The position numbers were made by a program, and so were the translations under genes. From assembly GCF_000972865.1 (NCBI RefSeq), contig NZ_CP011144.1:1798001-1862000 (forward strand): a stretch of 64,000 nucleotides of DNA. Reading direction: 5' to 3'. Positions 30,430 to 50,609 of the stretch are shown piece after piece. The notes beneath the pieces were generated by a model. That model had not been told where the DNA came from, made no database searches, and was given only the letters and a program-made list of their open reading frames with translations. The stretch comes from Pseudoxanthomonas suwonensis. Lineage in GTDB: Bacteria; Pseudomonadota; Gammaproteobacteria; Xanthomonadales; Xanthomonadaceae. Positions within the stretch are counted from its first letter, which is position 1. Each line of letters opens with the position of its first letter.

Positions 30430-31245
30430 TCACTGGCCGGACGCGGTGACCGTGCACTGCAGGGTCACCACCACCTGCCCGCCTGCGGGCAGGTCAGGAA
30501 TGGTAACGCCTGCGCCGACGAGGTCGTTGACCGGCACGGTGGCACCGCCACCCGGGCAACTGGCGCCACCGCTCGCCGAACAGGCAGCCGTGGGACTGGG
30601 GGCCGTGCAGTCCAGGCCCGCGCCCGGCGTGTCGCTCAGTTGCACGCCGGTCACGTTCCCGGGGCCGGCGTTGTTCACGGTCAGGGTGTAGCTGACCACC
30701 CCGCCGGTGCGCACGGTGCCGGGAGTGGCGGATTTGGCCACCGATACGTCGGCGATGAGCAGGTTGGTGAAGGTGCAGACGATGGCAGCGTCCGGCAGCA
30801 GGTTGGCCGGCGCGATGACCAGCGTGTTGCCGGCCAGGGTGCCGAACGAGGCGGGATTGCCGGTGACGGCGGCATTGGTGTCGCTGCAGCTGGCGCCATC
30901 GAGTTCGAACACGGGATTGGCCGCCTCGGTGATCGACACCGGCAGCGCCGGGATGGCCACCGTCGAAACCTGGGTCGAGAGCGTCGGCGTGCCCGCGGTG
31001 GTGGTGACGATGCTGTCCGCCGCGTCCGACAGGTTGGTCATCGTGTACGCGAAGGTGCCGGTCCCGCCCTGGCTGACCTTCGCCAGCTGCACGGTCTGCG
31101 CGCCGGCAACCGGAATGGCACCCAGGGCCAGCGCACACAGGACCGCCACGCCCGGCGGCCACCTGCCGGACACGCGCAAGGGATGCCTGCCGGTCGGGCC
31201 AGGGCCGGAAGACGGAGAAAGCGCGGGAGAAGCCTGCGTCGCCAT
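30430..31245 (-). CDS. Secreted DUF11-domain protein, third gene of the surface operon
   Basis: A 271-residue protein with an unusually long n-region (about 30 residues) before the signal h-region VAVLCALALGAIPVAGAQ. Residues about 50-140 form a beta-rich domain (QLAKVSQGGTGTFAYTMTNL). A DUF11-type domain (about 143-271) starts VSVAKSATPGTVRTGGVVSY and contains NNAGPGNVTGVQLSDTPGAG. These repeat folds are the same class as those in the giant protein upstream, so it may cap, decorate or nucleate that fibre (inference). Its ATG directly follows the barrel gene's stop, with no gap. Confidence 0.8.
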   Translation of the reverse strand: MATQASPALSPSSGPGPTGRHPLRVSGRWPPGVAVLCALALGAIPVAGAQTVQLAKVSQGGTGTFAYTMTNLSDAADSIVTTTAGTPTLSTQVSTVAIPALPVSITEAANPVFELDGASCSDTNAAVTGNPASFGTLAGNTLVIAPANLLPDAAIVCTFTNLLIADVSVAKSATPGTVRTGGVVSYTLTVNNAGPGNVTGVQLSDTPGAGLDCTAPSPTAACSASGGASCPGGGATVPVNDLVGAGVTIPDLPAGGQVVVTLQCTVTASGQ

Positions 31246-34200
31246 TCAGTACACCCCCACGAGGTTGAGGAACCAGCCCTTGTGGTCGTAGTCGAAATCG
31301 GTCAGGTCGTCGCTGAACTCGGTGAAGTTGTAGCCGGCGCCGATGCGGAAATTCTTGCCGATGTCGCGGTCCAGCCCCACCAGCCAGCCCTGCCGGGTGC
31401 CGCCCGACTGCACGTCCAGCCAACGGTACTCGGCCAGCGCGTGCCAGGCATAGACCACCTCGTAGCGCAGCTGCAGCGCGGCGAAATCGGTGGCCGAGTC
31501 GAACCACGCGCCGCTGCCGCGTCCGTAGCGCGCCTCGCCCTCGCGCCGGGCGAGCTTGCCGGCGACCTCCCAGTTCTGGTCGTGGCGGTACACGCCCTCG
31601 AACGACAGCACCTGGGTCTTCTGGTCGTAGTCGTTACCGCCCACCTGGCCGGGACTGGCCAGGTCGTACAGGTAGGTGTAGCGGCCGAACAGCTCCCAGC
31701 GCACGCTGTCCCAGGGCCGCCAGGCGAAGCCAGTGTTGCCCTCGATGAAGCGCGCGTCGGCGAGCGGGTCGCGGTTGTCGTCGGTGTCGGCGTAGTTCAG
31801 CCGCGCGGCGATGCGCAGGCTCTCGCTGAGCTTGTGCACCAGACGGTGGGTGCTGACCCACTGGTCGCGGTCCTCGGCGCCGCGGTCGCGGCGGTACTCC
31901 AGCTTGCTCTGCCAGTCGGTGTCGGCCGAGGTGCGGCCGCCGTTGAGGCTGACCGCGCTGCGGTCGATGTTGCCGCCGCCGGCGTTGGTCAGTTCGCCGT
32001 CCTGCAGGGTGAAACCCAGGTTCCAACCGACGCCGGGATAGAAATCCATGCCGAAGGTATTGGCCAGGCCCTCGGAGCCGTCGGGATCCTTGAGGTACTG
32101 GCTCTCGTTGAACAGGTTGGCCTGCCGCGACAGGCGCCAGCGCTGGCCCACCGTCCAGCCGTTCTGCCGGTTCGGATTGAACAGCGAGTCGTAGCGCCGG
32201 GTGTCGGTGGACCAGGTGTAGCTGCCGTAGATCGAATGGTCCGGCTGCAGGCGGTATTCGGCGGTGAGGCTGGCCGCGTTGCCGCGGTCGCCGCTGCTGA
32301 CCTCGCCGCCCACCGACGACAGGTTGCCGAACAGGTAGCGGCCGCCGACAGCGAGGGCGTTGTTGTCTTCGTAGCGACCGTCGTCGTCGTCCAACGTGAC
32401 CTGCGCCAGTCCGTACAGTTCCAGGCTGCTGCCGAAGCGGTGGCTGTACTTCACCGCGCCCAGCAATCCGGTGGCGTCCACGCCGGCGCGGTCCTCCTGG
32501 ACCCGGCGCAGTTCGGTGCTGAAGGTGCCGTCGTCGCTGACCCGCCATTCCAGCAGGCCCTGCACCTGCACCAGCGAGTCGGCGCCGCGCTCGGCCTCGC
32601 TGTAGCGCGAATACAGCTTGAGGTTCGGCGTGATCCAGCCCAGCACCTCGGCGCCGTACTCGGTCACCTCCTCGCCCGGATCGAAGCGGCTGATCGAGAA
32701 CCCGCCATCGACCCGGCGCCACCACGCCGCCGTGCTCCAGTCCTCCTCGGTCCAGCCCAGTTCCTTGAAGTTGGCCCGCGCTTCCAGCGCCCGCGCCTCG
32801 CCCTCGCGCGGGCCCAGCGGGTTGGTCTGGACGAAGCTCAGGCCGCCGTTGTCGGAGAAGAACACCGGCGCGCTGTAGGACTCGGTCCTGGCGTACTCGG
32901 CCTTGAGGTAGGTGCCCTTGCCCACCTGCAGGGTCAGGTCGCCGCCGGCCAGGGTGTAGTCCTGGCCCGCGCGGTTCTCGTCCACGTAGGTGACGCCGAG
33001 GCCGACGTGGTCGCCGAACCAGTGCTTGCCGCGCACGCCGGCGGTGATGTCGTCGGCGTCGAAGCCGGTCGGGATCCATTCGTAGTCCACCAGCAGGCGC
33101 TGCTCGAAGCCGTCCAGCGGGGTGTCGCGGGTCAGGGTCGGCACGTTGTCGCGGGTGATCTGCGCCAGCGGCCGGCTCAGGATCACCCGCCCCTGCATCT
33201 CGTCGATCTCGTAGTCGGCGCCGCGCACCAGCACGACGCGGTTCTCCACCCGGCCGGTGGTGGTGTCGCGGATCTCGAGCGTGACCGCCTCCGAGCCGGG
33301 CAGGATGTCGGTGTGGCGCAGGTAGTACAGGCTGCCGCCGGTGCCGATGAACTGGCTGTGCCCGGGCGCGGTCTGCGCCTGCGAGCCGAACGCGCGCAGT
33401 ACCGTGGCCGGGTCGCCCCAGGCGTTGGCGCGCAGCGAACGCCAGGACAGCGCGCCGCCGTACAGCGAACGCACGTACTGGCCGTATTCGGTGCCGGTGA
33501 AGCCGGTGGCGTAGTTGCCCCACAGCGCCTGGTTCTTGTCCCAGTCCACCCGCAGGTAGAAGCGGCCCATCGTGTCCACGTCGCGCCAGGTCGTGGAGTC
33601 GTCGCCGTACACCGGGTAGTACAGGTCCGGGTCCAGGCGCCGGAAGATGTCCTGCGGATCGGCGTTGCCGAAGCCGTCGAACAGGCGCTCCAGGTCACGC
33701 TCGGTGGTGTCGGCCTGGGCGGTGACCAGGTAGCGGCCCTTGTACTTGGCCTTGCCGTAGAACGCCAGGCGGCCGTCGCTGATCACGTCGTCGGCGTAGC
33801 GCGGGTCGACCGAGGCGCGGTCGACCGAACTGCTGACCTTGTTCTGGGCGATGGTCACGTCGGCCAGGCCGATGCCGAAGAAGTACTCGCCGCTGACGTC
33901 CACCGACAGGGTGTGCGCGTAGTCGCCCTGCGCGCCGGTCAGCGCCACCTCGAAGTCGTGCTGGCCGACCGGCATCAGGTACTCGGCGACGAACTTGCGG
34001 TCCAGGTCGACCGGATAGCTGTGGCCGTCGATGGTCAGGCTGGCCCGGTCGGGCAGGTTGCGGCCGTGGATGCGCACCCGCGAGCCGTTGAGCGCGATGT
34101 TCTGCTGGCGCAGGCCGTTGCCGGCGAAGACGTTGTCGAGCAGGCGCTGCGATTCGGCCTGCTCGCCGCTCAGCGCGGTGCCCAGCGAGCGCTCGGTCGC

Positions 34201-34974
34201 CTCGCGCAGGCGCCGGTTGCCGCCCTCGGCTTCCTCCGGCAGCACCAGCTGCATCACCTGCGGCCAGGTCTCGTCGACCGCGCCGCCGGCACCGTACGCG
34301 CGCAGCACGTAGATCAGCGGGTCGCCGGTGCGGAAGCGGTAGCGCTCCGGCAGCTGGCCGTCCCATTCGCCCTCGGCGACGGCGGCCACCTCCAGCGGCA
34401 CGATGGCGATCGGTTCGATCAGGTCGCCGTCGCTGCCGCGGTAGATCGCGATCTCGTAGCGTTCGACGAAGGCGCTGTAGTTGCCGCGCGCATAGAACCG
34501 CACCGGGCGGGTGATGCGCTGGCCGTCGAACGGCAGCAGCGAGGTGGCCGATACCGACAGTTCCGGAAGGCCGGGATTGGGATCCTCGGTGACCCAGATC
34601 ACCCCGCCATCGGGCAGCGCCACCGAGAACCGGCCCAGGGCGGTGACCTGGCCGGGCCGCTCGCGCTCGACGGTGACGCGCCGGTCCGGCGCCAGCGCGC
34701 GGCCGGTGGCCGGCGCGCCCGGCGAGGTGGCCGGCAGTTCCTCGCCGCGCGTGCGCAACCGCAACAGGACGCCCTCGTCGCTGCTGCAGCCGGCGTCGTC
34801 GCACGCCGGTTCCGGCACGGCGCCCGCTGGTGGCGCGGTCTCGCCAGCCGGGAGTGCATCGGCCGGGGTGGTGGCGGCCGGCGCCGGATCGGCGGCCTGC
34901 GCGTTGGCCGCCGGCGCCAGTCCGTACAGCACGCCCAGCAGGGCGGCATCGAGCAGTCGCAGGCGCAGGGTCAT
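31246..34974 (-). CDS. Large outer-membrane beta-barrel protein, partner of the giant repeat protein
   Basis: A 1,242-residue protein with a signal peptide (1-26, PAANAQA). Residues about 27-120 form a Pro/Ala-rich acidic leader; about 120-360 is a periplasmic beta-domain (GNGLRQQNIALNGSRVRIHG, VDVSGEYFFGIGLADVTIAQ). From about 375 to the end it alternates aromatic strands and acidic turns typical of a very large barrel, with SDGRLAFYGKAKYKGRYLVT, DPDLYYPVYGDDST and GLGVTYVDENRAG, and it ends in an aromatic residue (FLNLVGVY) as BAM substrates do. It overlaps the giant gene by ATGA. I infer it is the outer-membrane exporter or anchor of that protein. Confidence 0.85.
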   Translation of the reverse strand: MTLRLRLLDAALLGVLYGLAPAANAQAADPAPAATTPADALPAGETAPPAGAVPEPACDDAGCSSDEGVLLRLRTRGEELPATSPGAPATGRALAPDRRVTVERERPGQVTALGRFSVALPDGGVIWVTEDPNPGLPELSVSATSLLPFDGQRITRPVRFYARGNYSAFVERYEIAIYRGSDGDLIEPIAIVPLEVAAVAEGEWDGQLPERYRFRTGDPLIYVLRAYGAGGAVDETWPQVMQLVLPEEAEGGNRRLREATERSLGTALSGEQAESQRLLDNVFAGNGLRQQNIALNGSRVRIHGRNLPDRASLTIDGHSYPVDLDRKFVAEYLMPVGQHDFEVALTGAQGDYAHTLSVDVSGEYFFGIGLADVTIAQNKVSSSVDRASVDPRYADDVISDGRLAFYGKAKYKGRYLVTAQADTTERDLERLFDGFGNADPQDIFRRLDPDLYYPVYGDDSTTWRDVDTMGRFYLRVDWDKNQALWGNYATGFTGTEYGQYVRSLYGGALSWRSLRANAWGDPATVLRAFGSQAQTAPGHSQFIGTGGSLYYLRHTDILPGSEAVTLEIRDTTTGRVENRVVLVRGADYEIDEMQGRVILSRPLAQITRDNVPTLTRDTPLDGFEQRLLVDYEWIPTGFDADDITAGVRGKHWFGDHVGLGVTYVDENRAGQDYTLAGGDLTLQVGKGTYLKAEYARTESYSAPVFFSDNGGLSFVQTNPLGPREGEARALEARANFKELGWTEEDWSTAAWWRRVDGGFSISRFDPGEEVTEYGAEVLGWITPNLKLYSRYSEAERGADSLVQVQGLLEWRVSDDGTFSTELRRVQEDRAGVDATGLLGAVKYSHRFGSSLELYGLAQVTLDDDDGRYEDNNALAVGGRYLFGNLSSVGGEVSSGDRGNAASLTAEYRLQPDHSIYGSYTWSTDTRRYDSLFNPNRQNGWTVGQRWRLSRQANLFNESQYLKDPDGSEGLANTFGMDFYPGVGWNLGFTLQDGELTNAGGGNIDRSAVSLNGGRTSADTDWQSKLEYRRDRGAEDRDQWVSTHRLVHKLSESLRIAARLNYADTDDNRDPLADARFIEGNTGFAWRPWDSVRWELFGRYTYLYDLASPGQVGGNDYDQKTQVLSFEGVYRHDQNWEVAGKLARREGEARYGRGSGAWFDSATDFAALQLRYEVVYAWHALAEYRWLDVQSGGTRQGWLVGLDRDIGKNFRIGAGYNFTEFSDDLTDFDYDHKGWFLNLVGVY

Positions 34975-37900
34975 GGCGTGCCCTCCGCTGCCGGGGGACC
35001 CAGCGGCGCGCCCGGGTCGGACTCGACTTCCACGGTCAGCCGTGCGCGCACCTCCGGCGGCAGCCGCTGCGCCAGCGCTTCGTAGACGGCCTTGGCGCGG
35101 CGCAGGCCGAGCGCGGCGTTGTACTCGCGGCTGCCGCGGCGGTCGGCATGGCCGATGATCGATATCGCCTCGCCGCCGCTGGCCGCGACCTGCCTGGCCA
35201 GCTCGTCGAGCAGCGGGTCGAAGCGCGGCGGGATGGTGGCCTTGTCGGTGTCGAACAGGAACGTGCCGAGCACGGTGCCACCCTCGCCGATGCCGGCGAG
35301 CAGCGAGGCCGGGTCGTCCGGATCGGCGCGCACGCTGATTGCCACCTGCGGGCGCAGCGACTCGTCCAGGCGTTCGCCCAGCAGCGCCTGCACCGCGGCG
35401 GCACGGGCCAGGGCCAGCGCCCCGGTCTCGCCGCTGGCGTCGATCACCACCTCGCCGCCACCGTGGCGGCGCACCTGCTCGGCCATGCTGTCCACCACCG
35501 CCAGGTAGCGCGCCTGCACCTGCGCGCTGCCCGGCGCGAACACCACCGTGCCCAGCGTCATCTCCACGTCGCGGCGGCCCTCGATGACCTGCTCGGGCAG
35601 GCGCACGCCGAAGTCGAAGCGGGTCGGCACGCCGCCGGTGATGCGGCGCACCTTCGGGTTCTCGGTGGTCAGTTCCGAACCCGGCGGGAGCGTGGCGGTG
35701 TCGACCTTGAGCACGAAGTTGCGGCCGCGCGCGGCCCGGCCGGCGTCGATGCCGACCAGGTGGTAACGGCCGTACTGGTCGGTCTCGATCAGCAGGCCCT
35801 CGACCGAGGCGATGCGCACGCCGGGGATGCCGCGCTCGTCGATGCCTTCGTTGCGCACCACGTAGTCGACCTGGTAGCCGTCGGCCGACTGCGCGACCTG
35901 GCGGCGCACGGTCGGCGCGGCCGCGGTCAGGCCCTTGGCGGCGTCGCCCCGGGTCTCCAGCGTGGTGCTGCCGTCGGCGGCCATGCGCACGGTGGCGCCC
36001 TGCGCGCTGGTCAGCACGAAGTCGCCGGTGAAGTCGGGTTCGCGCAGGCGCTGGCGGATCACCACCTCGTGCGCGGCGGCCGGATCGGCCGGCGACTGGC
36101 GGCCTTCGATCCGGCCCAGCTCGAGGCCGCGCAGCAGCGGCGCGCTGGCGTCGGGCACGGACTGCGCGCCGGCGCCGCGGTCGATCGTGGTCGAGCCGGC
36201 GATGTACGCGCCGGGGGCGAAGCCGCCCTGCACGCGCACGCCGGTGAGCGCGGCGCTGTCCTGCCAGGCGTCGCCGTCGCGGTCGTTGAACACCGTGCCG
36301 GAGATCAGGCTCTCGTCGAGCATCGGGTCGCTGCCCAGCACGACCTCGGCGGTGGCCACGTTCGAGGCCGGTCCTTCGTAGGCCGGGTCGTACGCCACCG
36401 CACGGTTGACCTGCGTGCCCGGCCGCACGCCGGCGCCGACCCGCATCAGGTAGCTGATGGTGGCGGTATTGCCGGCGGCCAGGTCGATGTCGGAGATGCG
36501 CAGCGGCGAGATGCCGGTGGCGGTGACCAAGCCGTCGTCGTCGCGGCCCTGCAGCGAGCCCTCGACGTAGGTGAAGCCGGCCGGCGGGGTGTCGATGATG
36601 TAGCCGTCGACCAGGTCGATCTCGCCGGTGTTCTCCAGGGTCAGGGTGTAGCGGACCAGGTCGCCGACGTTGACCTGGCGCACCCCGGCCACCTTGGTCA
36701 GGTACAGCTGCGCCGGCTCGTTCTGCACCTCCACCTGCGCCGCGGCGTTGGCGGTGACCTGGATGGTGCCGCTCACCAGGCCGGCGTCGCCCTGCGCCAG
36801 CACGGTGTTGACCAGCAGGCCGATGTCGGAGTGGACCTCCTCCTCGGTGATGACGTGCTCGTAGCTGTCGCAGCTGGCGACCTGGCCGGGCACCAGGGTG
36901 GTCGGCGCACAGGCCAGCGTTACCGGCGCGCCGCCCTGGAAGGTGTCGGTGACGGTGACGCCGGTGAGGGTGACGTTGCCGGTATTGGTGGCATTCACCG
37001 TGTAGGTGACCACGTCGCCGATGTTGCCCTTGCCGGGCGTGGCGTTGTCCACGGTCAGCACCGCGGTCTTGGTCGTGGCGATGGCCGGGCGCTGGATCAC
37101 CGGGGTGACGATCTCGGTGGCGCAGGCCGGGTCGGCGGAACCGGCCGGACAGGCCTGCGGTGGCAGCGGCGGCACGTCCGGCGGGGCCTCGGTCTGCACG
37201 GTGGCGGTGTTGAGCACCTGCCCGGCGTCGGCGTCGGCCTGGGTGACGGTGTAGGTGGCCACCAGCTCGCAGGTGCCGCCCGGCGTCACCAGCGGGCAGG
37301 TCAGGCTGTCCGGCGTGGTGATCGGATCGTCGATGGTGACGTTGGCCAGCGGCACGTTGCCGGTGTTGGTGGCGGTGACGCCATAGGTGAGCGTGTCGCC
37401 GACGCTGACCTCGCCGTTGCCGTCGGCATCGTCGTTGGCGGTGAGTTTCTTCTCCAGCGCGATCGACGGGCGGCTGACCGGATGGATCGTGTCGCAGACC
37501 GTGCAGGTCGGTTCCGCGTCGCCGCCGGCGGGGTTGCTGGGCACGACCACGTTGCGCGGCGCACCGGTGGCGTCGGCATCGACCGTGGCGGTGTAGGTGA
37601 AGTCGTAGCTGCCCGGGAGGGTCCCGGCCGGCAGCACGCAGGTAAGCGCGCCGCTGCAACTGTAGGCGCCCGGGTTGGTGACCGCGCCGAAGGTCAGGCC
37701 CGGGTCGAGGGTGTCGACTAGGGTGATGTCCTCGGTCGTCACCGAGCCGCTGACCACGGTGGTCACGGTGTAGGTGATGAGCGTGCCCGGATTGACCGGC
37801 GTGGCGCTGGCCGGCGTGGAGGCCTTGGAGACCGTGCTGGTGGAGGCGACCACCGGGTTGTCCGTGTCGCACACGGTGCAGGTCACCGGCGGATCCACGC

Positions 37901-40900
37901 CGGGATCCTTGCTGGCCACGACGTTGTTGCCCACCGATCCGGTGGCGTCGGCGGCGACGGTGGCGGTATAGACGAGTGGGTAGCTGCCCGGAGGCGTGCC
38001 GGCCGGCAAGGTGCAGACCAGCGGGTTGGCCGCGTTGCAGCCGAAGGCGCCGGCACTGGTCACCGCACCGAAGGTCAGGCCCGGGCCGAGGGTGTCGGTG
38101 AGCGTGACCGGCTCGTGCAGGCTGGCATCGGCGACGGTGGCGGTCACCGTGTAGGTCAGCACGTCGCCGGGCGCCACCTCGGTGCCCGACGCCGGATCGA
38201 CCGCCTTGGCGACGGTGGTGACCGCGGGAACGACGGTCACCTCGGCATCGTCGGGTCCGCTGTCCACGCTGCCGCCGGCAACGGTGCCGCTGGCCACGGC
38301 GGTATTGGTGATCCGGCCGGACAGCAGGTCGGCCTGGGTCACCACGTAGCTCGCGGTGCAGGTGGTGCTTGCCGCGGGAGCCAGCGTGGTCACCGCGCAG
38401 GTGGGTGCCGGCACGGTACCGGAGCCGCTGAACGCGGTCTCGGTCACGACCAGCGCATTGACCGTCACGCCACCGGTGTTGGTCACCAGGAAGGTGTAGT
38501 CGATGGTGTCGCCGACCGCGGACACGCTCGTCGGCGTGGCGGCCTTCTCCAGGCTGAGCCCGGGCACGGCGGTGGCGGTGACGACCGCATCGTCCTCGTT
38601 GGTGAGCAGGGGGATGCCATCGGGTGGCGTCACCTGCGCACGCGCGGTGTTGGTCACCTGGCCGGCGTCGATGTCGGCCTGGGTCACCGTGTAGCTGGCC
38701 GTGCAGGTCACGCTGGCGTTGGGCGGGTAGCTGCCGGCGGGGCAGGTCACCACCGGCCAACCGCCGGTGCCGCTGAACGCGCGCTCCTCCACCACCGGGT
38801 CGGTGACGGTCTGGTTGCCGGTATTGGTGATCAGGAACTCGTAGGTGACCTGCTCGCCGGCCGCGGCCACGGTCGTCGGGGTGACTTCCTTGGCCAGCGA
38901 CGCCGAACGCAGGTTGTCCACGGTGACCTGGGCATCGTCGTCGTTGCTGGCCACCGGCCCGCCCGGGCCAACGGCATTCGCCCGCGCCACGTTGTCGATG
39001 CTGCCGGCATCCATGTCGACCTGGGTGACCTGGTAGGTCGCGGTGCAAGTGACCGAATCGCCCGGCGCCAGGGTTCCGGCAGCCGGCCCGCACACCACCC
39101 CGGTCATCGTGCCGCTGCCGCTGAAACCCGCCTCCTCGATGGCGATCGCGTTCACCGTTACGTTGCCGGTGTTGGTCACCTCGAAGCTGTAGGCCAGCAC
39201 CTGGCCGGCGGTGGACACCTGTGTCGGCAGTACCGACTTGACCAGCTGGAGTTGCACGTCCTGGTCCACGGTGACGGTGGCACTCGACGGCGGGCTCGGC
39301 ACGGCGGTGCCGTCCGGCGCCTGGCCATTGGCCGTGGCGGTATTGGTGACCTGGCCGGCGTCCAGGTCCGCCTGGGTGACCGCGTAGGCGGTGCTGGTGC
39401 AGGTGGTGTCGGCGCCGGGGGCCAGTTCGCTCACCGGGCAGGTGATGGTCGGCGCCGTGCCGGTGCCGCTGAAGGCCGTTTCGGTGACCGACAGGTTGTC
39501 GATGGTGACGTTGCCGGTGTTGGCCACCAGGAACGAATAGCTCACCGTGTCCCCGACCGCCGTCACGGTCGTGGGCGACGCGGTCTTGGTCAGGGCCAGG
39601 GCGGGCGCCGCAGCGGCGGTGAACTGCGCGCTCGATGGCGCACTGGCCGCGGGGCCGGCGTTGGTGGTGGTGCCGTCCGCTTCGGCGGTATTGGTCACCA
39701 CGCCGGCGTCGATGTCGGCCTGGGTGGCGGTATAGGTGGCGGTGCACTGCACCCGTTCGCCCGGGGCGAGCGTGGTGCGCGCGCAGTCCGCGACCGGTGG
39801 GCTGCCGGTGCCGCTGAAGGCCAGCTCGGTGACGACCAGGTCGTTGATCGTGGTGTTGCCGATGTTGCTCACCTGGAAGATGTAGACCACCTGCTGCCCG
39901 GCCTGGCTGACGGCAAGCGGCAGCACGGACTTGGCCAGGTCCAGCTGCACCTGGGCATCGACATCCACATCGGCGGCGTCGGGCGCGCTGACCACGCTGG
40001 CCCCGCCCGGATCGGTGCCCGAGACGGTGGCTTCGTTGTGGATCCCGCCCTGGTCCACGTCGGCCTGCTGGACCGTGTACGTCGTCGTGCAGGTCGTCGC
40101 CTGGCCGGGCGCGAGCGTGAGGTCCGCGCAGGTCGGCGGCGTCAGTGCACTGGTGCCGTCGAACGCGGTTTCGTTGATCTGCACGCCGTCGATGGTGATG
40201 TTGCCGGTATTGGTCACCTGGAAGGTGTAGGTCACCACGACGCCGGCCTGCGACACCTGGCTCGGCGAGACCGACTTGTCGAGAACGAGTTCGGCGAACT
40301 GGTCGCCGGTCACGCGTTTGCTGGACGTCACCGGGCCGACGACGTTGTCGCCCGGGTCCAGCGCCGTGGCCTGGGCGGTGTTGTTGACGAAGCCGGCGTC
40401 CAGGTCGTCCTGGTTGAAGACATAGGCGGCGGTGCACGCATAACTGGCCCCAGGCGCCAGCGCCGCCGGCTGGCCGCTGCAGTCCGGCACGGGCGCCGGC
40501 GTGTTGTTCCCGTCGAACGCCGTTTCGGTGACGGCGATGGTGTCCAGGGTCACGTTGCCGGTGTTGGTGACGGTGTAGGTGTACGCGATCGGCGTATCGG
40601 CCACGCTCACCACGTCCGGGGTGGCGGCCTTGACCAGGGTCAGCGCCGCATTCTCCAGGACGGTCACCTGTGCCTGGTCCTGGTTGCTCTCCACCGGCAC
40701 CGCCGTGGGCGACTGGCCGGTCGCGGTCGCGTCGTTGACGATCGAGCCCTGGTCCAGGTCCTGCTGGGTCACGCTGTAGGTGGCGTTGCAGTTGGCGACC
40801 GCCCCCGGCGCGATGCTGGTGGGCGAGCAGGAAATCGCCGACACCGCGCCGGACCCGGTGAAGTCGTCCTCGCGGATCGCGATCTGGCCGATCGTGACGT

Positions 40901-43900
40901 TGCCGGTGTTGGTGACCTGGAAGGCATAGCCGACCTGCTGGCCGACCGCGGACACCGTGGTCGGCGTGGCGGTCTTGACCAGCGCCAGCGCCGGGCTCTC
41001 GGCCAACGCCGTGGTGGTCGCATCGTCATCCGTGACCGCAGCGCCGCTGGGCGGGTTGCCCGACGCGGTGGCGGTGTTGCTGACGCTGCCCGCGTCCATG
41101 TTCGCCTGGGTAATCGTGTAGGTACGGCTGGCGCAGGTCATCGACGCGCCCGGTGCCAGCTGGCCCGGTGGGCAGCTCACCGCCGCCGGGTTCAGGGACG
41201 GGTCGTTCAGGGTGATCGTGGACAGCGTCACGTTGCCGGTGTTGGTGACCACGAAGCCGTACTGGATGGTGTCGCCGGCGTCGGTGACCGACGGCAACGC
41301 ACCCTGCGCGGTGGTCGGGGCGGCAGCGCTCTTGTCCAGCTGGATCTGCGGGCCGGCCGCGAGCGGGACGGTCGCCGTGTCCGGCGCGGAGGTGACGCGG
41401 GCGCTGGCGGGGGGCGTGGCCGACGCGGTGGCGGTGTTGTCGATCACGCCGTTGTCCATCTCGGCCTGGGTGATCGTGTGCACGCCGGTGCAGGTCGCCG
41501 TTTCGTTCGGGCCGGCGGCCTCCAGGACAGTACGGTCGCAGGTGACCGGCCCGTTCAGGTTGGCGTCGTTGATCACCAGCTGGGTCAGCGTCTGGTTGCC
41601 GGTATTGGTCACCACGAAGGTGTAGGTAATGGTGTCGCCGGCGTCGGTGACGGCCGCATCGAGGCCCTGGTCGATGCTGGGGCTGCCCGCGGTCTTGACC
41701 AGCGCCAGCGTCTGCACGGGAATCGGCAGCTGCACGGTGGCCGATGCGGTGGCCCGGCCTCCGTTCCACAGCGCTTCGGCCGTGTTGTCGATATCGCCGT
41801 CGCCGCCGCCGTTGGTGTCGAAGTCGAGCGGCGTCGACAGGTAGGTGCCGATGCAGGTGAAGTCTTCTCCCGGCGCCAGCGAGGTGATGGGCGTGGGCGG
41901 CGTGCAGCTCAGCGACGGCACGCGCGGGTCGACCACGCGTACGTTGGTCAAGGTGATGTTGCCGTTGTTGGTACCGGTGATGGTGTAGACGATCGGATCG
42001 CCGGGCAGCGCCACCGAGGCCACGTCGGCGGCCTTGCCGAAGGCCAGCGAGGGATTCTTGACGATCGGGATCGACAGGGTGCTGGTGGCCTGCAGGTTGA
42101 CCGGGCCGGACGGCCCGCTGACGGTGACGCCCGTCGCCGCCGCGGCGTTCTCGATGGACGTTTCCGTGTCGATGTCGGCCTGGGTGACCGCACGCGCCGT
42201 CCCCGTGCAGACCACGTCCACGCCGGGCTGGCCACTGCCGCCGAACAGCACCGACGCACCCGGCGGCAGGTTGACCGCTGGCGAAGCCGGACACGCCAGG
42301 CCCAGCGTACCGTCGCTGACGGTGACGTCGTTGACGGTGACGTTGCCGGTATTGGTCACCCGGAAGCTGTAGTTGACCGTCAGCGGCGCGGCGATGCTGG
42401 TCACGTCCGCCTGCTTGAGCAGGGTGATCGCCGGCTGGCGGACCGGCAGGGTGACTTCGTTGACGTCCGAATTGGTGAGGATGTCGGTGGTGCCGGCCAC
42501 GGTCGCGCTGACGGTGGCGCGGTTGTCGATCTGGCCGTCGTTGGGCTTGAAGTCGGTGCTGCCGCTGTCGATGTCGGCCTGGGTCACCGTATAGGTGCTG
42601 CTGGCGGCATCGCAGGTGAACGTCACCGTGCCGGCGGGCGGCAAGGAGGCGATCGGGTCGCAGTCCAGGCCGGGCAACAGGGAATCGGTGATCGTCAGGT
42701 TCAGCAGCGTCGTATTGCCGGTATTGGTGACGTCGAAGCTGTAGAGGACCGGCGAATTCGGTCCGGGCACCGAAACCACGTTCGAGCTCTTGCGCAGGAA
42801 CAGGCCCGGCGCGCGCGCAGGCAGGTCGACGATCCAGTCGTCGGAGTCGGTCGCCGTGACCGGATTGCCGTCGTCGAGGTACGTCGCCTGTCCCGTGACC
42901 GTGTTCAGGATCACGCCGCTGTCGGCGACAGGATTGCCCTGGTTGTCGATGTCCTGCTGCTGGACCGTATAGACATGGGTTCCGTTGCAGCTGAACGTCG
43001 CCGTCTGCCCCGGCGCCAGCGTCGGGATGACGTCGCAGGCCAGGGCGTCGATGACGGTGTCCTGGACGATCTGGGCGTCGGTGAGGGTGACCTGCGAATT
43101 GTTGGAGGCGGTGAAGGTGTAGGTGATCTGTTCGCCGACGCTCGAGACGAAGGTCTTGTCGGCGGTCTTGATGATGGTCGCCGTGCCCGGTCCCGTGTCG
43201 ATGTCGACAGCGGCGGTGTCGGTGTCGACCACCGGCCGGCCGTCGTACGTGCCGGCGGCGGTGGCGGTATTGACCATCACCCCGCCCGCATCGATGTCGG
43301 CCTGGGTCACGGTGTAGGTGGCCGAACAGGTGGCACTGGCGCCGGGCGCCAGGTCGAACGGCGCCGCGGGCGTGCAGGTGATCGGCCCCAGCCCTGCCTT
43401 GGGGTCGACGACTTCAATGCCGGCCACGGTGACGTTGCCCGCATTGGTGACCGTGAACGAATAGGTGACGACCTCCCCGGCGGCGCTGACGCTCGCAGGA
43501 CTGGCGGTCTTGTCCAGGTGCAGGCGTGGCGCCGGCGGATCCAGCGGCGTCGTTTCGCTGGCCTCGCCGCTGGCGCTGCCACCGGTCGGACTGGTGCCGG
43601 TCCCGAAGGCGATGTTGTCGATGTTGCCGCTGCCGCCGCCGTAGCTGTCGATGTCCGCCTGGGTGATTACATAGGTGTTGCCGGTGCACAGCACGTCCGC
43701 CGGCGGCGCGGGGCTGCCGACCAGCACCGATTGTCCCGGCGCCAGCGGCCCGATCGGCCCGCAGCTGAGGCCGGGCAGCAGCGGATCGACGATGGTGACG
43801 CTCTGGATGGTGGCATTGCCGTTATTGGTGATGGTGAAGTTGTAGGTGATCGTCTCCCCGGCGCTGCCCTGACCGCTGCCATTGGTGTCGGCCAGGGTGC

Positions 43901-46793
43901 CGCTCTTGCTGAAATCGGCCACGAAATCGCGCGCGGGCAATGCCGTTTCCGCATCATCGGTGTCGGTGATCGTGGCACCGTCCGGATCCGTGCCGCTGGC
44001 ATCGGCCGTGTTGGTGACGAAGTCGTCGTCGCTGCCATCGCCGCTGCCGAAGCGGTCGATGTCGGCCTGGGTGACGGTGTAGGAACCGGTGCAGCTGACC
44101 GTCGCGCCGGGCACCAGCGTCGCGGGCAATGACGGATTGCAGCTGAGCGTGCCCTGGCCGACCAGCAGCGGATCGTCCAGGGTCACATTGTCGAGCGGGA
44201 CGTTGCCGTCGTTGGTGATGGTGATCGAATAGGGAATCACGTCGCCGGCGGCGTTGACGCTGGTCACCGTGGTGCTCTTGTCGACCACGAGCGACGGCCG
44301 TGGCACGAACGTGTTGCTGTAGGTGCAGGTGACAGGGACGCCAGCATCGGCGTCGGCGATCGAGATGGTCAGGCCGTTACCCAGATTGGTGTCGGTGCCA
44401 TCGCAACTCACATTGCTGTCGAAGTCGGCCGCATTGCCGGTGGTGAAGCTTTCGGCCGGCAGTTGGCCGGTCTCGAAGGCGAACACCTCGAACGGGCCGA
44501 CCGTGGTGGCGGTCGGGTCGGTCGAAGTGAACGGGGTGCTGTTGTTGATGAAACCCGTGGTCGCCGGGATGCTGACCGTTGCCCCGGTCACCGGGCCACC
44601 CCAGACCTTGCGCACGTACAGCTCGGTGCTCTTGCGGTCGTTGGTGAAGGTGCAGACGATCGGCCCGTCGGTCGCGCCCACGGTCAGCGTGCCGCGGGTC
44701 GGATCGCCCGGATCGTTGACCAGCCCGCTGGTGTTGGTGCAGGCCAGGGTTTCCAAGTACAGGTTGGAAGTGATCGTGCCGAACGATTCGTCGATCGTGA
44801 TCACTTCGCCGGCATACGCCGTCCAGACCGGACCGCTGTCGGTCTGGCTCGGGCCGCCGCTGGCGCTGGAATTGAACGTACCCTTGCCGCTGGCCACCAG
44901 GCTGACGGTATCGCCCGGCAGGCCGTTGAGCCAGGTCTTCTGCAGCTGCAGCGTGGTGCTGTTGCGGGTGTTGGCGTAGGTGCACTGGATCGGCTGGCCC
45001 TGGTCGGCGGGCAGCACTTCCAGGGTGTTGGCGACCTTGCCGTCGGTGCCGGACAAGGCGCCGCCCGAGCAGGACACTGCCACCGTGTAGTTGGCCAGCG
45101 CGCCGGCGGACATGGTCTCGGCCGGCAGGGTGGCGATCTCGCCCGCATACACGGTCGCCGTGATGCTGGCTGCGCCGACCGAAGCGGTGGAGGTGAAGGC
45201 GTTGGTGTTGTTGAGCAGGCCGGTGGTCGCGGCCAGCTGCGCCTGGTCGCCGCCGCGGCTGTTCGGCCCCCAGACCTTGTTGAGCTGCAGCGTGGCCTGC
45301 AGCCGGGTGTTGGTGTAGCGGCAGGTGATCGTGGTGTCCGCCGCGCCGACGGTGAGCTGGTCGCCGGCGAGCGGCGTGCCGTTGCCGCTGCAGCTGAGCA
45401 CGCTGGTGTAGTTGGCGGCATTGGCCGCGGTGGCGAAGGTTTCGGACAGGGTGAGGGTTTCACCGGCGTACACCTGCTGCGCCGTCCCGGTATCGGTCTC
45501 GGTGGCGGTGTCGGCGCTGGAATCCAGCGTGACCGGACCGTGCAGGCTGCCGCTGGCCGAGACCTGCGCCTGCTCGCCCACCAGGGCGTTCACCCAGCGC
45601 TTCTCCAGCACCAGGTTCACCGGCCTGCGGGTGTTGGTCTGGGTGCAGGTGATGGCCGTGTCGCCGCCGGCGACGGTGAGGGTGTTGCCGGACAGCGGTA
45701 TGGCGTTGCCGGTGCACGCCATGGCCGCGGTGTAGTTGGCGGGGCTGCTCAGGGTTTCGGTGATGGTGCCCGACTCGCCGGCATAGACCACCACCTGTGC
45801 GCCGGTGGTGCTGTTGCCGCCGGTCGCATCCGCGGTGGAACTGACCGTGGCCGGGAAGGTGAAGCCGTTGCTGGTGACCGTCGCGGTGTCGCCGGGCTGG
45901 GCGTTCACCCAGGTCTTAACCAGCTGCAGCTGGGCGGAGCGCCGTGTGTTGGTCGCCGTGCACGTCAGCGAACTGTCGGCGGGCATGATGAAGGTGGCGC
46001 CGATGGTCGCCCCTATCACCCCGTCGATGTCGCGCACGCAGGTCAGCGCGACCGTGTAGTTACCCGCCGACGCGGCCGGGGAGAAGACCTCGGCCACGGT
46101 CACGGTCGAGCCGGGCTGCGCCACGGCGGTGGCCGGCGTGGTCGTGCCCGACACGGCTGATGACCCGGGTACCGCGTTCTGCACGCCGGGGCCGGAGATG
46201 GTGAGCTGGACGGAGTCGCCGGGCCTGCCGTTTTCCCAGGCCTTGGTGAGGGTGACGCCGCGGTAGACCGGATGGGTGGTGGTGCAGGCGGCCGGGCAGC
46301 TGTCGCCGCCGGTGGCGCTGTTGGCCACCGCCAGCCCGGCACTGGGCAGCACCGTGGCGCCGTAGGTGACCGAGTACGTGCCGGTGGTCCCGGCCGGGAC
46401 CACGCACTCGACGTTGCCGCCGGCCTGGGTGCAGCCGGCGGGCAGCGGCGTGACGGGTTGCAGGCCTGGTCCCGGCGTATCGGTGATCAGGATGGGGGCC
46501 GCGGTGGTGCCCGCGGAGATCGTCGCGGTGATCGTGTACTGGATGGTGTCGCCGACCGCGACCGGCGTGCCGCTGGCGGGGCTGGCGGTCTTGCCCAGGG
46601 CCACGGCATAGACGCCGACCGTGACGCTGTCGCTGTTGTCTGACGGGTCGTCCGCGACCCCGGCCGGCAGCGACACCTGCGCGCCGTTCTGCACCTGGGT
46701 CTGCGCATGCGCCGGCACCGCGCCGCAGGCAAGCAGGGCCATGCCCATCACCCAGGCGACACTCCGGTAACGCAGTCCCTGCATTGCCAGCAT
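34971..46793 (-). CDS. Giant DUF11-repeat cell-surface protein with C-terminal OmpA-like domains
   Basis: A protein of about 3,940 residues. The signal peptide spans about 4-34 (WVMGMALLACGAVPAHAQ). One DUF11-like unit (about 55-175) is followed by six prealbumin-like repeats (about 176-828, each opening like LxLxKxWxNxxPGD and ending TNTR), then about 22 DUF11/DUF7507 repeats (about 831-3488, core TYTFxVTNTGNVTI). An SdrD-like segment with ISGTVFNDRDGDAWQD follows (about 3492), then two OmpA-like domains (about 3748-3810 and 3846-3925). The second keeps GHADRRGSREYNAAL and LRRAKAV, the peptidoglycan-binding Asp and Arg. Start ATG 46793 or 46784; the frame runs open to 46946. Likely a surface fibre or adhesin anchored to peptidoglycan. 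Confidence 0.88.
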   Translation of the reverse strand: MLAMQGLRYRSVAWVMGMALLACGAVPAHAQTQVQNGAQVSLPAGVADDPSDNSDSVTVGVYAVALGKTASPASGTPVAVGDTIQYTITATISAGTTAAPILITDTPGPGLQPVTPLPAGCTQAGGNVECVVPAGTTGTYSVTYGATVLPSAGLAVANSATGGDSCPAACTTTHPVYRGVTLTKAWENGRPGDSVQLTISGPGVQNAVPGSSAVSGTTTPATAVAQPGSTVTVAEVFSPAASAGNYTVALTCVRDIDGVIGATIGATFIMPADSSLTCTATNTRRSAQLQLVKTWVNAQPGDTATVTSNGFTFPATVSSTADATGGNSTTGAQVVVYAGESGTITETLSSPANYTAAMACTGNAIPLSGNTLTVAGGDTAITCTQTNTRRPVNLVLEKRWVNALVGEQAQVSASGSLHGPVTLDSSADTATETDTGTAQQVYAGETLTLSETFATAANAANYTSVLSCSGNGTPLAGDQLTVGAADTTITCRYTNTRLQATLQLNKVWGPNSRGGDQAQLAATTGLLNNTNAFTSTASVGAASITATVYAGEIATLPAETMSAGALANYTVAVSCSGGALSGTDGKVANTLEVLPADQGQPIQCTYANTRNSTTLQLQKTWLNGLPGDTVSLVASGKGTFNSSASGGPSQTDSGPVWTAYAGEVITIDESFGTITSNLYLETLACTNTSGLVNDPGDPTRGTLTVGATDGPIVCTFTNDRKSTELYVRKVWGGPVTGATVSIPATTGFINNSTPFTSTDPTATTVGPFEVFAFETGQLPAESFTTGNAADFDSNVSCDGTDTNLGNGLTISIADADAGVPVTCTYSNTFVPRPSLVVDKSTTVTSVNAAGDVIPYSITITNDGNVPLDNVTLDDPLLVGQGTLSCNPSLPATLVPGATVSCTGSYTVTQADIDRFGSGDGSDDDFVTNTADASGTDPDGATITDTDDAETALPARDFVADFSKSGTLADTNGSGQGSAGETITYNFTITNNGNATIQSVTIVDPLLPGLSCGPIGPLAPGQSVLVGSPAPPADVLCTGNTYVITQADIDSYGGGSGNIDNIAFGTGTSPTGGSASGEASETTPLDPPAPRLHLDKTASPASVSAAGEVVTYSFTVTNAGNVTVAGIEVVDPKAGLGPITCTPAAPFDLAPGASATCSATYTVTQADIDAGGVMVNTATAAGTYDGRPVVDTDTAAVDIDTGPGTATIIKTADKTFVSSVGEQITYTFTASNNSQVTLTDAQIVQDTVIDALACDVIPTLAPGQTATFSCNGTHVYTVQQQDIDNQGNPVADSGVILNTVTGQATYLDDGNPVTATDSDDWIVDLPARAPGLFLRKSSNVVSVPGPNSPVLYSFDVTNTGNTTLLNLTITDSLLPGLDCDPIASLPPAGTVTFTCDAASSTYTVTQADIDSGSTDFKPNDGQIDNRATVSATVAGTTDILTNSDVNEVTLPVRQPAITLLKQADVTSIAAPLTVNYSFRVTNTGNVTVNDVTVSDGTLGLACPASPAVNLPPGASVLFGGSGQPGVDVVCTGTARAVTQADIDTETSIENAAAATGVTVSGPSGPVNLQATSTLSIPIVKNPSLAFGKAADVASVALPGDPIVYTITGTNNGNITLTNVRVVDPRVPSLSCTPPTPITSLAPGEDFTCIGTYLSTPLDFDTNGGGDGDIDNTAEALWNGGRATASATVQLPIPVQTLALVKTAGSPSIDQGLDAAVTDAGDTITYTFVVTNTGNQTLTQLVINDANLNGPVTCDRTVLEAAGPNETATCTGVHTITQAEMDNGVIDNTATASATPPASARVTSAPDTATVPLAAGPQIQLDKSAAAPTTAQGALPSVTDAGDTIQYGFVVTNTGNVTLSTITLNDPSLNPAAVSCPPGQLAPGASMTCASRTYTITQANMDAGSVSNTATASGNPPSGAAVTDDDATTTALAESPALALVKTATPTTVSAVGQQVGYAFQVTNTGNVTIGQIAIREDDFTGSGAVSAISCSPTSIAPGAVANCNATYSVTQQDLDQGSIVNDATATGQSPTAVPVESNQDQAQVTVLENAALTLVKAATPDVVSVADTPIAYTYTVTNTGNVTLDTIAVTETAFDGNNTPAPVPDCSGQPAALAPGASYACTAAYVFNQDDLDAGFVNNTAQATALDPGDNVVGPVTSSKRVTGDQFAELVLDKSVSPSQVSQAGVVVTYTFQVTNTGNITIDGVQINETAFDGTSALTPPTCADLTLAPGQATTCTTTYTVQQADVDQGGIHNEATVSGTDPGGASVVSAPDAADVDVDAQVQLDLAKSVLPLAVSQAGQQVVYIFQVSNIGNTTINDLVVTELAFSGTGSPPVADCARTTLAPGERVQCTATYTATQADIDAGVVTNTAEADGTTTNAGPAASAPSSAQFTAAAAPALALTKTASPTTVTAVGDTVSYSFLVANTGNVTIDNLSVTETAFSGTGTAPTITCPVSELAPGADTTCTSTAYAVTQADLDAGQVTNTATANGQAPDGTAVPSPPSSATVTVDQDVQLQLVKSVLPTQVSTAGQVLAYSFEVTNTGNVTVNAIAIEEAGFSGSGTMTGVVCGPAAGTLAPGDSVTCTATYQVTQVDMDAGSIDNVARANAVGPGGPVASNDDDAQVTVDNLRSASLAKEVTPTTVAAAGEQVTYEFLITNTGNQTVTDPVVEERAFSGTGGWPVVTCPAGSYPPNASVTCTASYTVTQADIDAGQVTNTARAQVTPPDGIPLLTNEDDAVVTATAVPGLSLEKAATPTSVSAVGDTIDYTFLVTNTGGVTVNALVVTETAFSGSGTVPAPTCAVTTLAPAASTTCTASYVVTQADLLSGRITNTAVASGTVAGGSVDSGPDDAEVTVVPAVTTVAKAVDPASGTEVAPGDVLTYTVTATVADASLHEPVTLTDTLGPGLTFGAVTSAGAFGCNAANPLVCTLPAGTPPGSYPLVYTATVAADATGSVGNNVVASKDPGVDPPVTCTVCDTDNPVVASTSTVSKASTPASATPVNPGTLITYTVTTVVSGSVTTEDITLVDTLDPGLTFGAVTNPGAYSCSGALTCVLPAGTLPGSYDFTYTATVDADATGAPRNVVVPSNPAGGDAEPTCTVCDTIHPVSRPSIALEKKLTANDDADGNGEVSVGDTLTYGVTATNTGNVPLANVTIDDPITTPDSLTCPLVTPGGTCELVATYTVTQADADAGQVLNTATVQTEAPPDVPPLPPQACPAGSADPACATEIVTPVIQRPAIATTKTAVLTVDNATPGKGNIGDVVTYTVNATNTGNVTLTGVTVTDTFQGGAPVTLACAPTTLVPGQVASCDSYEHVITEEEVHSDIGLLVNTVLAQGDAGLVSGTIQVTANAAAQVEVQNEPAQLYLTKVAGVRQVNVGDLVRYTLTLENTGEIDLVDGYIIDTPPAGFTYVEGSLQGRDDDGLVTATGISPLRISDIDLAAGNTATISYLMRVGAGVRPGTQVNRAVAYDPAYEGPASNVATAEVVLGSDPMLDESLISGTVFNDRDGDAWQDSAALTGVRVQGGFAPGAYIAGSTTIDRGAGAQSVPDASAPLLRGLELGRIEGRQSPADPAAAHEVVIRQRLREPDFTGDFVLTSAQGATVRMAADGSTTLETRGDAAKGLTAAAPTVRRQVAQSADGYQVDYVVRNEGIDERGIPGVRIASVEGLLIETDQYGRYHLVGIDAGRAARGRNFVLKVDTATLPPGSELTTENPKVRRITGGVPTRFDFGVRLPEQVIEGRRDVEMTLGTVVFAPGSAQVQARYLAVVDSMAEQVRRHGGGEVVIDASGETGALALARAAAVQALLGERLDESLRPQVAISVRADPDDPASLLAGIGEGGTVLGTFLFDTDKATIPPRFDPLLDELARQVAASGGEAISIIGHADRRGSREYNAALGLRRAKAVYEALAQRLPPEVRARLTVEVESDPGAPLGPPAAEGTP
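36330..44310 (-). repeat. Array of about 22 in-gene repeats (unit about 360 bp) within the giant gene
   Basis: Protein units of about 110-125 residues recur with the core VTYTFxVTNTGNVTI and the segment CTATYTVTQADIDAG. At DNA level short blocks such as GTCGGCCTGGGTCACCGTGT (plus-strand reading) recur in most units, while flanks diverge. The last two to four units are more divergent (TPASATPVNPG, TANDDADGNGEVSVGD). Confidence 0.85.
44310..46265 (-). repeat. Six prealbumin-like repeats at the N-terminal end of the giant gene
   Basis: Six units of about 105-115 codons each open with a K-x-W motif: LTKAWENGRPGDS, LVKTWVNAQPGDT, LEKRWVNALVGEQ, LNKVWGPNSRGGD, LQKTWLNGLPGDT and VRKVWGGPVTGAT, and close with a TNTR-like string after a paired Cys. 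They form a block distinct from the DUF11 units. Confidence 0.8.
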
Positions 46794-47389: not shown

Positions 47390-47869
47390 CTACGCCTTGG
47401 GCAACGGCAGGCCGGCGGACGCCTTCACCGTGCGCAGCACGAAACTGGAGTTGACGTCGGCCACGCCGGAGGCGTTGAGCAGGCGGTCGAGCAGGAAGCG
47501 CGAGAAGTGTTCGAGGTCGCGCACGTAGACGTGCAACAGGTAGTCCATGTCGCCGGTCAGCGCGTGGCAGGCCACCACCTCGTCCCAGCCCTGCACGTTC
47601 TCGACGAAACGCTCGATCCCGGGCGCGCCGTGCTTCTCCAGCTGCACGCGGACGAAGGCCTGCAGCCCCAGCCCCAGCGCCTGCGGATCCAGCCGCGCGG
47701 CGTAGCCGGCGACCACCCCGGCCGCCTCCAGCCGCTGGATCCGGCGCAGGCAGGCCGAAGGCGACAGGTTCACCTGCGCCGCCAGGTCGGCGTTGCTGGC
47801 GCGGCCGTCGCGCTGCAGCAGGGCCAAGAGACGCAGGTCGGTGCGGTCGAAACCGTGGGTGGCGGCCAT
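47390..47869 (-). CDS. Lrp/AsnC-family transcriptional regulator, divergent from phhA
   Basis: A 159-residue Lrp-type regulator. The N-terminal winged helix-turn-helix (about 8-60) has DRTDLRLLALLQRDGRASNA and VNLSPSACLRRIQRLEAAGV. The C-terminal RAM/effector domain (about 70-150) has FVRVQLEKHG and HALTGDMDYLLHVYV, the amino-acid-sensing turn. It is divergently oriented to phhA with 127 bp between starts, and TTGC/GCAA motifs fill that gap. Likely an amino-acid-responsive regulator of phenylalanine hydroxylase (and possibly itself). ATG 47869 is used; the frame is open to 48046. Confidence 0.92.
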   Translation of the reverse strand: MAATHGFDRTDLRLLALLQRDGRASNADLAAQVNLSPSACLRRIQRLEAAGVVAGYAARLDPQALGLGLQAFVRVQLEKHGAPGIERFVENVQGWDEVVACHALTGDMDYLLHVYVRDLEHFSRFLLDRLLNASGVADVNSSFVLRTVKASAGLPLPKA

Positions 47870-47872
47870 TTG

Positions 47873-47948
47873 TTGCCTCGCAACATCGTTTTCACGCAAC
47901 AAGATTGCACGCCCAGGGTGAATACGCGCAACTTCGCAATCCTGTTGC
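47873..47948. promoter_or_regulatory. Putative Lrp operator cluster in the lrp-phhA gap
   Basis: GCAA or GCAAC sites at 47880, 47896, 47928 and 47936, and TTGC at 47873, 47905 and 47945, spaced by about one to three helical turns. Such clustered half-sites fit a multimeric Lrp-type regulator. Binding is inferred, not shown. Confidence 0.5.
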
Positions 47949-47996
47949 GCCATTTCCGGCCTACGCTGGGCGGACCTGCCCGCAGGAGCCAGCACG

Positions 47997-48893
47997 ATGA
48001 ACGACGCCAATGCCCCGCGCCGCGTGGAGCACCAACAGACCGACAAGGGCTACGTGCCGGTCTACACCACCGCCGTGGTCGAACAGCCGTGGCTGGACTA
48101 CAGCGCCGACGACCACGCCACCTGGGGCACGCTGTACGCGCGCCAGCGCGAACTGCTGGCCGGCCGCGCCTGCGACGAGTTCCTGCAGGCGCAGGACGCG
48201 ATGGGCATGGACGCGCGCGCGATCCCGCGCTTCGACCAGCTCAACGAAGTGCTGGGCGCAACCACCGGCTGGACCCTGGTCGGGGTCGAGGGCCTGCTGC
48301 CGGAGCTGGACTTCTTCGACCACCTGGCCAACCGCCGCTTCCCGGTGACCTGGTGGATCCGTCGCCCGGACCAGATCGACTACATCGCCGAGCCGGACCT
48401 GTTCCACGACCTGTTCGGCCATGTGCCGCTGCTGATGAACCCGCTGTTCGCCGACTACATGCAGGCCTACGGCCGCGGCGGAGTGAAGGCGCACGGCATC
48501 GGCCCGGAGGCGCTGCAGAACCTGACCCGGCTGTACTGGTACACGGTGGAGTTCGGGCTGATCCGCCAGGCCGACGGACTGCGCATCTACGGCGCGGGCA
48601 TCGTCTCGTCCAAGGGCGAGTCGCTGCACTCGCTTGAATCGGCGGCGCCGAACCGGATCGGCTTCGAGCTGGAGCGGATCATGCGCACCCGCTACCGGAT
48701 CGACACCTTCCAGAAGACCTACTTCGTGATCGACAGCTTCGAGCAGCTGATGCGGGCGACCGAACCGGACTTCACCCCGATCTATGCGCGGCTGGCGACG
48801 CAGGACACGATTCCGGCAGGCGAGGTGCGCGAGGACGACCACGTGCACCAGCGCGGCAGCGGCGAGGGCTGGGCGACCGACGGCGACGTCTGA
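47997..48893 (+). CDS. phhA: Phenylalanine-4-hydroxylase
   Basis: A 298-residue bacterial aromatic amino-acid hydroxylase. The non-heme iron ligands are the two His in LFHDLFGHVPLL and the Glu in YWYTVEFGLI. ARAIPRFDQLNEVL, RRFPVTWWIRRPDQIDYI and GAGIVSSKGESLHSL are the other conserved blocks. It converts phenylalanine to tyrosine with tetrahydrobiopterin and O2. The family's normal length is about 260-300. An Lrp regulator is divergently placed upstream, and an aromatic aminotransferase occurs at 54110, together suggesting phenylalanine/tyrosine catabolism. Confidence 0.96.
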   Translation: MNDANAPRRVEHQQTDKGYVPVYTTAVVEQPWLDYSADDHATWGTLYARQRELLAGRACDEFLQAQDAMGMDARAIPRFDQLNEVLGATTGWTLVGVEGLLPELDFFDHLANRRFPVTWWIRRPDQIDYIAEPDLFHDLFGHVPLLMNPLFADYMQAYGRGGVKAHGIGPEALQNLTRLYWYTVEFGLIRQADGLRIYGAGIVSSKGESLHSLESAAPNRIGFELERIMRTRYRIDTFQKTYFVIDSFEQLMRATEPDFTPIYARLATQDTIPAGEVREDDHVHQRGSGEGWATDGDV

Positions 48894-50376: not shown

Positions 50377-50609
50377 CGCCCAGTCCTCCCGCCCAAGTCA
50401 ACGAAGGCGCAGTAGACCGGTCCGGCCGGCGGCGTAGGTAAAACCCCGGTTAAGCCTGCCGTTTCCCTGGAAACAGATCGGCAGATGCACATGGCCGATT
50501 GGAATGATGGTGATTGGTTCTGAGCCGCCGGGGCGCGGGCGGGTGGCTGCACCCATATGCAACAACCGTGCGGTTCCACGCACCGCGGGCAGAGCCCTCC
50601 TCACCCCAA

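Follow-up and report, generated by a model that had tools for sequence, protein, structure and literature searches.

A giant CLIPPER-repeat protein of Pseudoxanthomonas suwonensis, its predicted partner barrel and a candidate tip protein ending in half a CLIPPER domain

Genes and features of the locus

We have analysed a window of 64,000 nucleotides of Pseudoxanthomonas suwonensis (contig NZ_CP011144.1, positions 1,798,001 to 1,862,000) that contains a unit of three adjoining genes, a giant repeat protein, a predicted outer-membrane barrel and a small, probably secreted protein. An earlier model-made reading of this DNA (the first-pass annotation) had described the giant and pointed to the barrel gene beside it; the third gene and its split domain were absent from it, and these we rate as the real finding. 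The three genes are as follows.

34971..46793, minus strand: giant fibre gene, 3,940 aa (open frame and domain searches)
31246..34974, minus strand: partner gene, predicted outer-membrane barrel, 1,242 aa, with an ATGA overlap with the giant
30430..31245, minus strand: third gene, encoding a proposed tip protein of 271 aa, with its ATG directly next to the barrel stop

The giant is encoded in a single frame that runs without stops from the ATG at 46793 to the TGA at 34973-34971, as the first-pass annotation had it (although with no strand given). An in-frame GTG lies upstream, at 46946, which would give 3,991 residues; the P0001 numbering starts from that GTG. Big out-of-frame open reading frames (ORFs) overlap the gene, which we attribute to the high GC. 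The following parts were distinguished by eye, by Pfam or by iterated hidden Markov model (HMM) searches with seeds taken from the window.

46704..46793, minus strand: signal peptide, residues 1-30, ...AHA^QT (by eye)
46617..46703, minus strand: proposed N-terminal donor strand ("tag"), residues 31-59, with the Asn36 codon at 46688-46686 (pattern and eye)
46260..46604, minus strand: first CLIPPER-type domain, residues 64-178 (HMM iteration)
44307..46256, minus strand: six prealbumin-like domains, residues 180-829 (HMM iteration)
36396..44291, minus strand: 22 more CLIPPER/CLIPPER_2-type domains, residues 835-3466 (Pfam and HMM iteration)
35589..36305, minus strand: SdrD-like domain with an insert, residues 3497-3735, part of a conserved anchor module (by eye)
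35358..35567, minus strand: first OmpA-like unit, degenerate (by eye)
35067..35258, minus strand: OmpA domain, P0001 3897-3960 (Pfam, E 3.3e-11)

The signal peptide and the six prealbumin-like repeats are those of the first-pass annotation, and so are the DUF11/DUF7507 units, except that HMM iteration counts 23 of them instead of about 22. These two families are isopeptide domains that have been renamed CLIPPER and CLIPPER_2, according to the available part of PMC12617251. In Pfam, DUF7507 scores 1423 bits over 19 stretches of the giant, DUF11 227 bits over 10, and OmpA appears as a single stretch, so of the two OmpA-like domains claimed before one is confirmed and the degenerate one rests on inspection. 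The SdrD-like segment is likewise recognisable by eye, split by roughly 120-130 inserted residues, and the protein of the window has no SdrD_B match at E 0.01 in Pfam; the family is matched in a relative (L110, E 2.9e-8).

Judging from their sequence, the repeats of the giant have Lys, an acid and Asn where isopeptide bonds would need them. In the repeat alignment Lys and Asn each fill their column in 23/23 CLIPPER-type domains (the Asn of the last domain is doubtful), and the prealbumin-like domains keep their Lys, two Cys and Asn columns in 6/6. By eye, each of the 29 repeats has an acid at the catalytic position (CLIPPER 23/23; prealbumin 6/6, as Glu). Eight adjacent CLIPPER domains (C11-C18, residues 1936-2854) have Glu as the putative catalytic acid and the remaining fifteen Asp, also by eye. 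Domains of this kind are about 4-5 nm long, from which the span of the 29 domains is estimated at ~120-145 nm. Such a long repeat protein would be suited to a fibre, and its OmpA-type C-terminus is probably bound to peptidoglycan, both in agreement with the earlier proposal.

The idea that repeats with an OmpA anchor would be unusual in a diderm is not supported. The anchor module has at least 301 matches in the protein collection, and B9T28_05395 of Acinetobacter silvestris, which is a putative fibrillar adhesin, shares the CLIPPER stalk, the OmpA-type anchor and a diderm host in what is available of PMC12617251. Some match to the OmpA part of the anchor is present in 389/398 genomes, so this part gives little information; more is learned from the SdrD-like part and from the barrel. 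The stalk and anchor of the giant are of an already known kind, and what is new is what surrounds them, the barrel partner, the third gene and the split domain.

The strand-rich part of the partner protein is this one.

31252..33885, minus strand: predicted beta-barrel part, residues 364-1241

That giant and barrel belong to one system, as suggested in the first-pass annotation, is borne out by their co-conservation. The barrel gene adjoins the giant in 75/80 relatives (the other 5 are interrupted by contig ends) and in the phylum survey a giant lay beside the barrel at 24/24 strong barrel places. The barrel has no Pfam or NCBIfam match at E 0.01, with usher families, POTRA and the TpsB barrel families all unmatched, and a sequence search of the PDB gave 0 matches. 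Foldseek returned a mixture of large barrels (Mtr complex, SprA, LptD, TonB receptors), and the top rows of the structural comparison were usher complexes (9fxs, 9fw9, 9fy9, 9bog, 6e14) with Z close to that of unrelated barrels. Several sources label it a TonB-dependent receptor, a label that we have rejected, as Pfam finds neither Plug nor TonB-barrel in it at E 0.01. Residues ~365-700 (window ~32875-33882) were the sole matching part in most of 34 further genomes with barrel matches, in ORFs mostly of 1.1-2.4 thousand residues, perhaps a wider family of giant barrels. In one relative (L120:9386-13107) the gene continues near its end in two overlapping frames, a break or an assembly fault.

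Half a domain on the third protein and a strand on the giant

By eye the third protein begins with a signal peptide; a SpaA_4 domain follows, and then a DUF11 domain that stops early.

30763..31092, minus strand: SpaA_4 prealbumin-like domain (Pfam)
30436..30750, minus strand: half CLIPPER domain ("catcher"), DUF11 profile 1-88 of 114, with Lys171 and Asp205 kept

What the catcher lacks is the last strand, the one bearing the reactive Asn. In 51/101 loci, the window included, some ORF terminates at or within a DUF11 match (L043, L116 and L121 are doubtful). These terminal domains end at model positions 87-97 of 120 in 73 of 75 cases; among 751 binned internal domains, 402 reach at least 111 and 245 more reach 98-110. 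We reject a broken gene or an assembly error as the cause, since 68 catchers from 46 loci all end in this way. In these clean catchers Lys and Asp are invariant (68/68 each), and complete internal domains have them in 271/293 and 273/293. Nearly all the catcher ORFs (65/68) are downstream of the barrel gene, in the same orientation. Searched against the PDB, the catcher profile gave 9 matches up to E 1, and the only one below 0.001 was 9ifr_A (E 5.8e-4). This entry is the solved CLIPPER domain of the A. silvestris adhesin with the OmpA-like anchor, as given in the part of PMC12617251 at hand.

A Cys near the catcher end (model position 89) is also invariant (68/68), and in the tip of the window it falls at 30433-30470, just ahead of the C-terminus. 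In complete internal domains Cys is outside the five commonest residues at that position.

The missing strand appears to be at the other end of the unit. Directly after its signal peptide the giant reads QTQVQNGAQVSLPAGVADDPSDNSDSVTV, which is the end of a DUF11 domain. The tip end alone scores 52.3 bits; followed by the first 32 residues of the giant it matches DUF11 from 1 to 114, at 62.8 bits. In 20 tip/giant pairs the addition of the tag always extended the match to model position 108 or beyond, with a median gain of +15.7 bits and a minimum of +2.8, and as a control the N-termini of untagged giants extended the catcher match that far in 8/320. The reactive Lys and the catalytic acid are on one chain and the Asn strand is on the other, so that, as far as sequence tells, the tip C-terminus and the giant N-terminus resemble complementary parts of a single domain and might join, perhaps covalently.

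Tags and catchers also travel together. Of 51 giants with a readable start, all from related loci, 24/28 tagged ones are accompanied by a catcher gene at the same locus, against 1/23 untagged ones. For this count the mature start of L062 was assigned by eye and the giant of L109, flagged by the tag pattern, was judged false and scored untagged. The catcher of L011 is the same ORF as that of neighbouring L012 and was scored against the hypothesis, and the upstream ORF of L121 was scored as a catcher despite its different end (23/28 without it). Left out were L026 (masked) and L123 (a duplicate of L037); open ORFs and L010, L043, L048, L061, L069, L077 and L116, with the N-terminus of the giant masked, unseen or missed by the script; and L005, L019, L031, L065, L072 and L075, with no giant match.

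The giants without a tag provide a natural control. Sixteen of them were compared with tips (15 from other loci and the second giant of the genome of the window; the comparison omitted 8/24, namely L104, L105, L106, L108, L109, L111, L117 and L119). Ten open with a region known from separate tips (best E <=2.4e-88, identity up to 87%), and in 9/10 of these fused giants a DUF11 match located there or further along the chain reaches model position 107 or beyond. In the remaining 6/16 the tip match was only DUF11-sized, weak or missing. The tip of L017, which shares its opening motif with the largest fused group, carries CshA_NR2 and GEVED by Pfam. The second giant of the P. suwonensis genome has a different N-terminus and no strand; the surrounding 19.5 kb held no catcher ORF, and genome-wide P0243 matched only itself.

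A genome of another class (G087, probably an alphaproteobacterium) has in a row a tip with a catcher, a middle protein with both tag and catcher, a base with a tag, and a barrel, which by its genes is a chain with polarity. In 60 genomes drawn from the family the barrel was present in 13/14 with a confirmed terminal catcher vs 4/46 others; for this survey 30 of the matches listed were checked for a terminal end, and G000, G090 and G284 were also in the earlier set. Among the four barrel genomes with no confirmed catcher, the giants of G402 and G432 are visible and untagged, that of G405 is cut by a contig end, and G410 has a piece of the barrel only.

Seventeen loci have two to four catcher rows each (a few perhaps shared or spurious ORFs), which suggests exchangeable tips. 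The longest series of such alternative tips are those of L035 and L065 (4 catcher rows each) and of L047, L050 and L082 (3 each); their N-terminal parts differ and the half-CLIPPER end is identical in kind. Self-polymerising tips were considered and discarded, since a loose tag pattern flagged 6/75 tip rows, of which only that of L112 looked convincing, the other five seeming by eye to be due to chance.

A candidate fibre and the alternatives

We consider it probable from these sequences that the three genes encode a sectional fibre anchored in peptidoglycan, to which tips are attached through donor-strand complementation together with an isopeptide bond between the chains. All three proteins would be exported by Sec. 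The giant would form base and shaft, its OmpA-type end binding peptidoglycan and its 29 isopeptide-type beta-sandwich domains running outward to a distal N-terminus. The large barrel conserved alongside it would pass the fibre across the outer membrane or seat it there, the base being held by the SdrD-like domain together with the barrel. The giant begins with strand and stalk domains, and adhesion would be left to the product of the separate third gene, an interchangeable tip. The mature N-terminal strand of the giant, with its Asn, would insert into the open CLIPPER domain of the tip, where Lys171 would attack Asn36 with the help of Asp205, making tip and fibre one covalent chain as in SpyTag/SpyCatcher. 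We also lean, if only slightly, to the more specific claim that this is a natural tag/catcher of diderms, in which a split CLIPPER domain clicks adhesin tips, and in some species shaft sections, onto the giant by an autocatalytic Lys-Asn isopeptide bond.

Complementary halves, and the usher complexes at the top of the structural comparison of the barrel, would be expected as well if the strand were exchanged without a bond, as in chaperone-usher pili. We find this unlikely, given that the Lys and Asp would be needless without chemistry, and they are fixed in all the catchers and slightly less constant in complete internal domains; the constancy of the tag Asn is not independent evidence for a covalent bond, since the Asn was used to recognise the tags. 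The truncated end might instead direct the third protein to the barrel for secretion or docking, with the strand of the giant only a remnant of gene fission. The near-constant end of the catchers, their position downstream of the barrel on its strand and the barrel in nearly all catcher genomes of the family survey agree with a docking signal, whereas the strand is kept in 28 giants, mostly of several genera of the family, tagged giants accompany catchers, 10 of the 16 untagged giants examined have fused tip-like domains, and tag and catcher are combined in the middle subunit of G087. Docking thus appears improbable to us. Finally, stalk and anchor match those of the A. silvestris adhesin (PMC12617251, as far as its available part goes), and the giant might be an ordinary OmpA-anchored CLIPPER fibrillar adhesin with an unrelated secreted protein encoded nearby. 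Co-occurrence, the fixed truncation point, the fused and split pairs and the abutment of the genes make such a coincidence very improbable.

Several observations weigh against the covalent fibre. Tags of other species score equally well (380/380), with no cognate specificity by sequence, so the complementarity is one of kind and not of pair; the tag of the window is weak on the tail profile (2.6 bits), and tags were called by pattern and eye with the Asn itself part of the pattern. Because the loci are related, the Fisher p-values for 24/28 vs 1/23 overstate their independence. Four tagged giants (L009, L054, L062, L074) have no catcher by HMM, although L062 has just 2.4 kb of downstream flank and the next ORF of L074 has a similar end by eye, and the untagged giant of L023 is accompanied by a short ORF that resembles a catcher by eye. 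One genome (G414: L157, L158) has two orphan catchers, and neither barrel, giant nor SdrD-like module was found there. The tip of the window has no ligand-binding domain in Pfam, and for the barrel we can only infer a role, its best structural rows being near unrelated barrels in Z.

Known systems, neighbouring genes and implications

Chaperone-usher pili work by donor-strand logic and have a distal tip and a large outer-membrane barrel, features that the unit described here resembles at the level of its genes. It differs in that the barrel has no usher family match, the shaft is one giant protein and covalent chemistry is expected. SpyCatcher derives from a CnaB-type domain. The engineered pairs of this type are likewise isopeptide domains cut before the terminal strand, with the bonding residues on two chains, but they are man-made, whereas the halves here are natural, DUF11 (CnaA-like) and would serve to join tip to fibre (PMC5487036, PMC6539128, from the portions available). 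B9T28_05395 has CshA_NR2-like and GEVED-like adhesin domains fused in a single polypeptide, domains that here are in the separate tip of L017, and a partner barrel, a separate tip or a split domain are unmentioned in the part of its description that is available (PMC12617251). The same portion of that source gives phage capsids and a helical hairpin fold as two cases of autocatalytic intermolecular bonds. The archaeal thread Saci_0406 also combines donor strands with apparent intermolecular isopeptide bonds, but its subunits are of one protein and the bond goes from the N-terminal alpha-amine to Asn57 two subunits along; the term DUF11 is absent from the text available (PMC9715654). A natural split CLIPPER joint was found in none of the literature matches listed, a coverage from which subscription papers and preprints were mostly missing.

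Of the other genes in the window, Pfam identifies an Lrp/AsnC regulator (47390-48046, minus strand), a GH18 family protein (27123-28292, plus strand), QueF (23564-24397, plus strand) and a TonB receptor (50504-52819, plus strand), and this search of the window proteins showed no link of any of them with the fibre.

How giant adhesins anchored by OmpA cross the outer membrane and stay in it is a question for which the co-conserved barrel is a concrete candidate. If the proposed fibre is real, this barrel would be the founder of a family for the export or seating of such fibres, and covalent tip swapping would be the function of those loci that have two to four genes for tips. A naturally split isopeptide domain would then represent a sortase-free principle of assembly for bacterial fibres, and its many orthologous pairs would be ready tag/catcher pairs for protein engineering.
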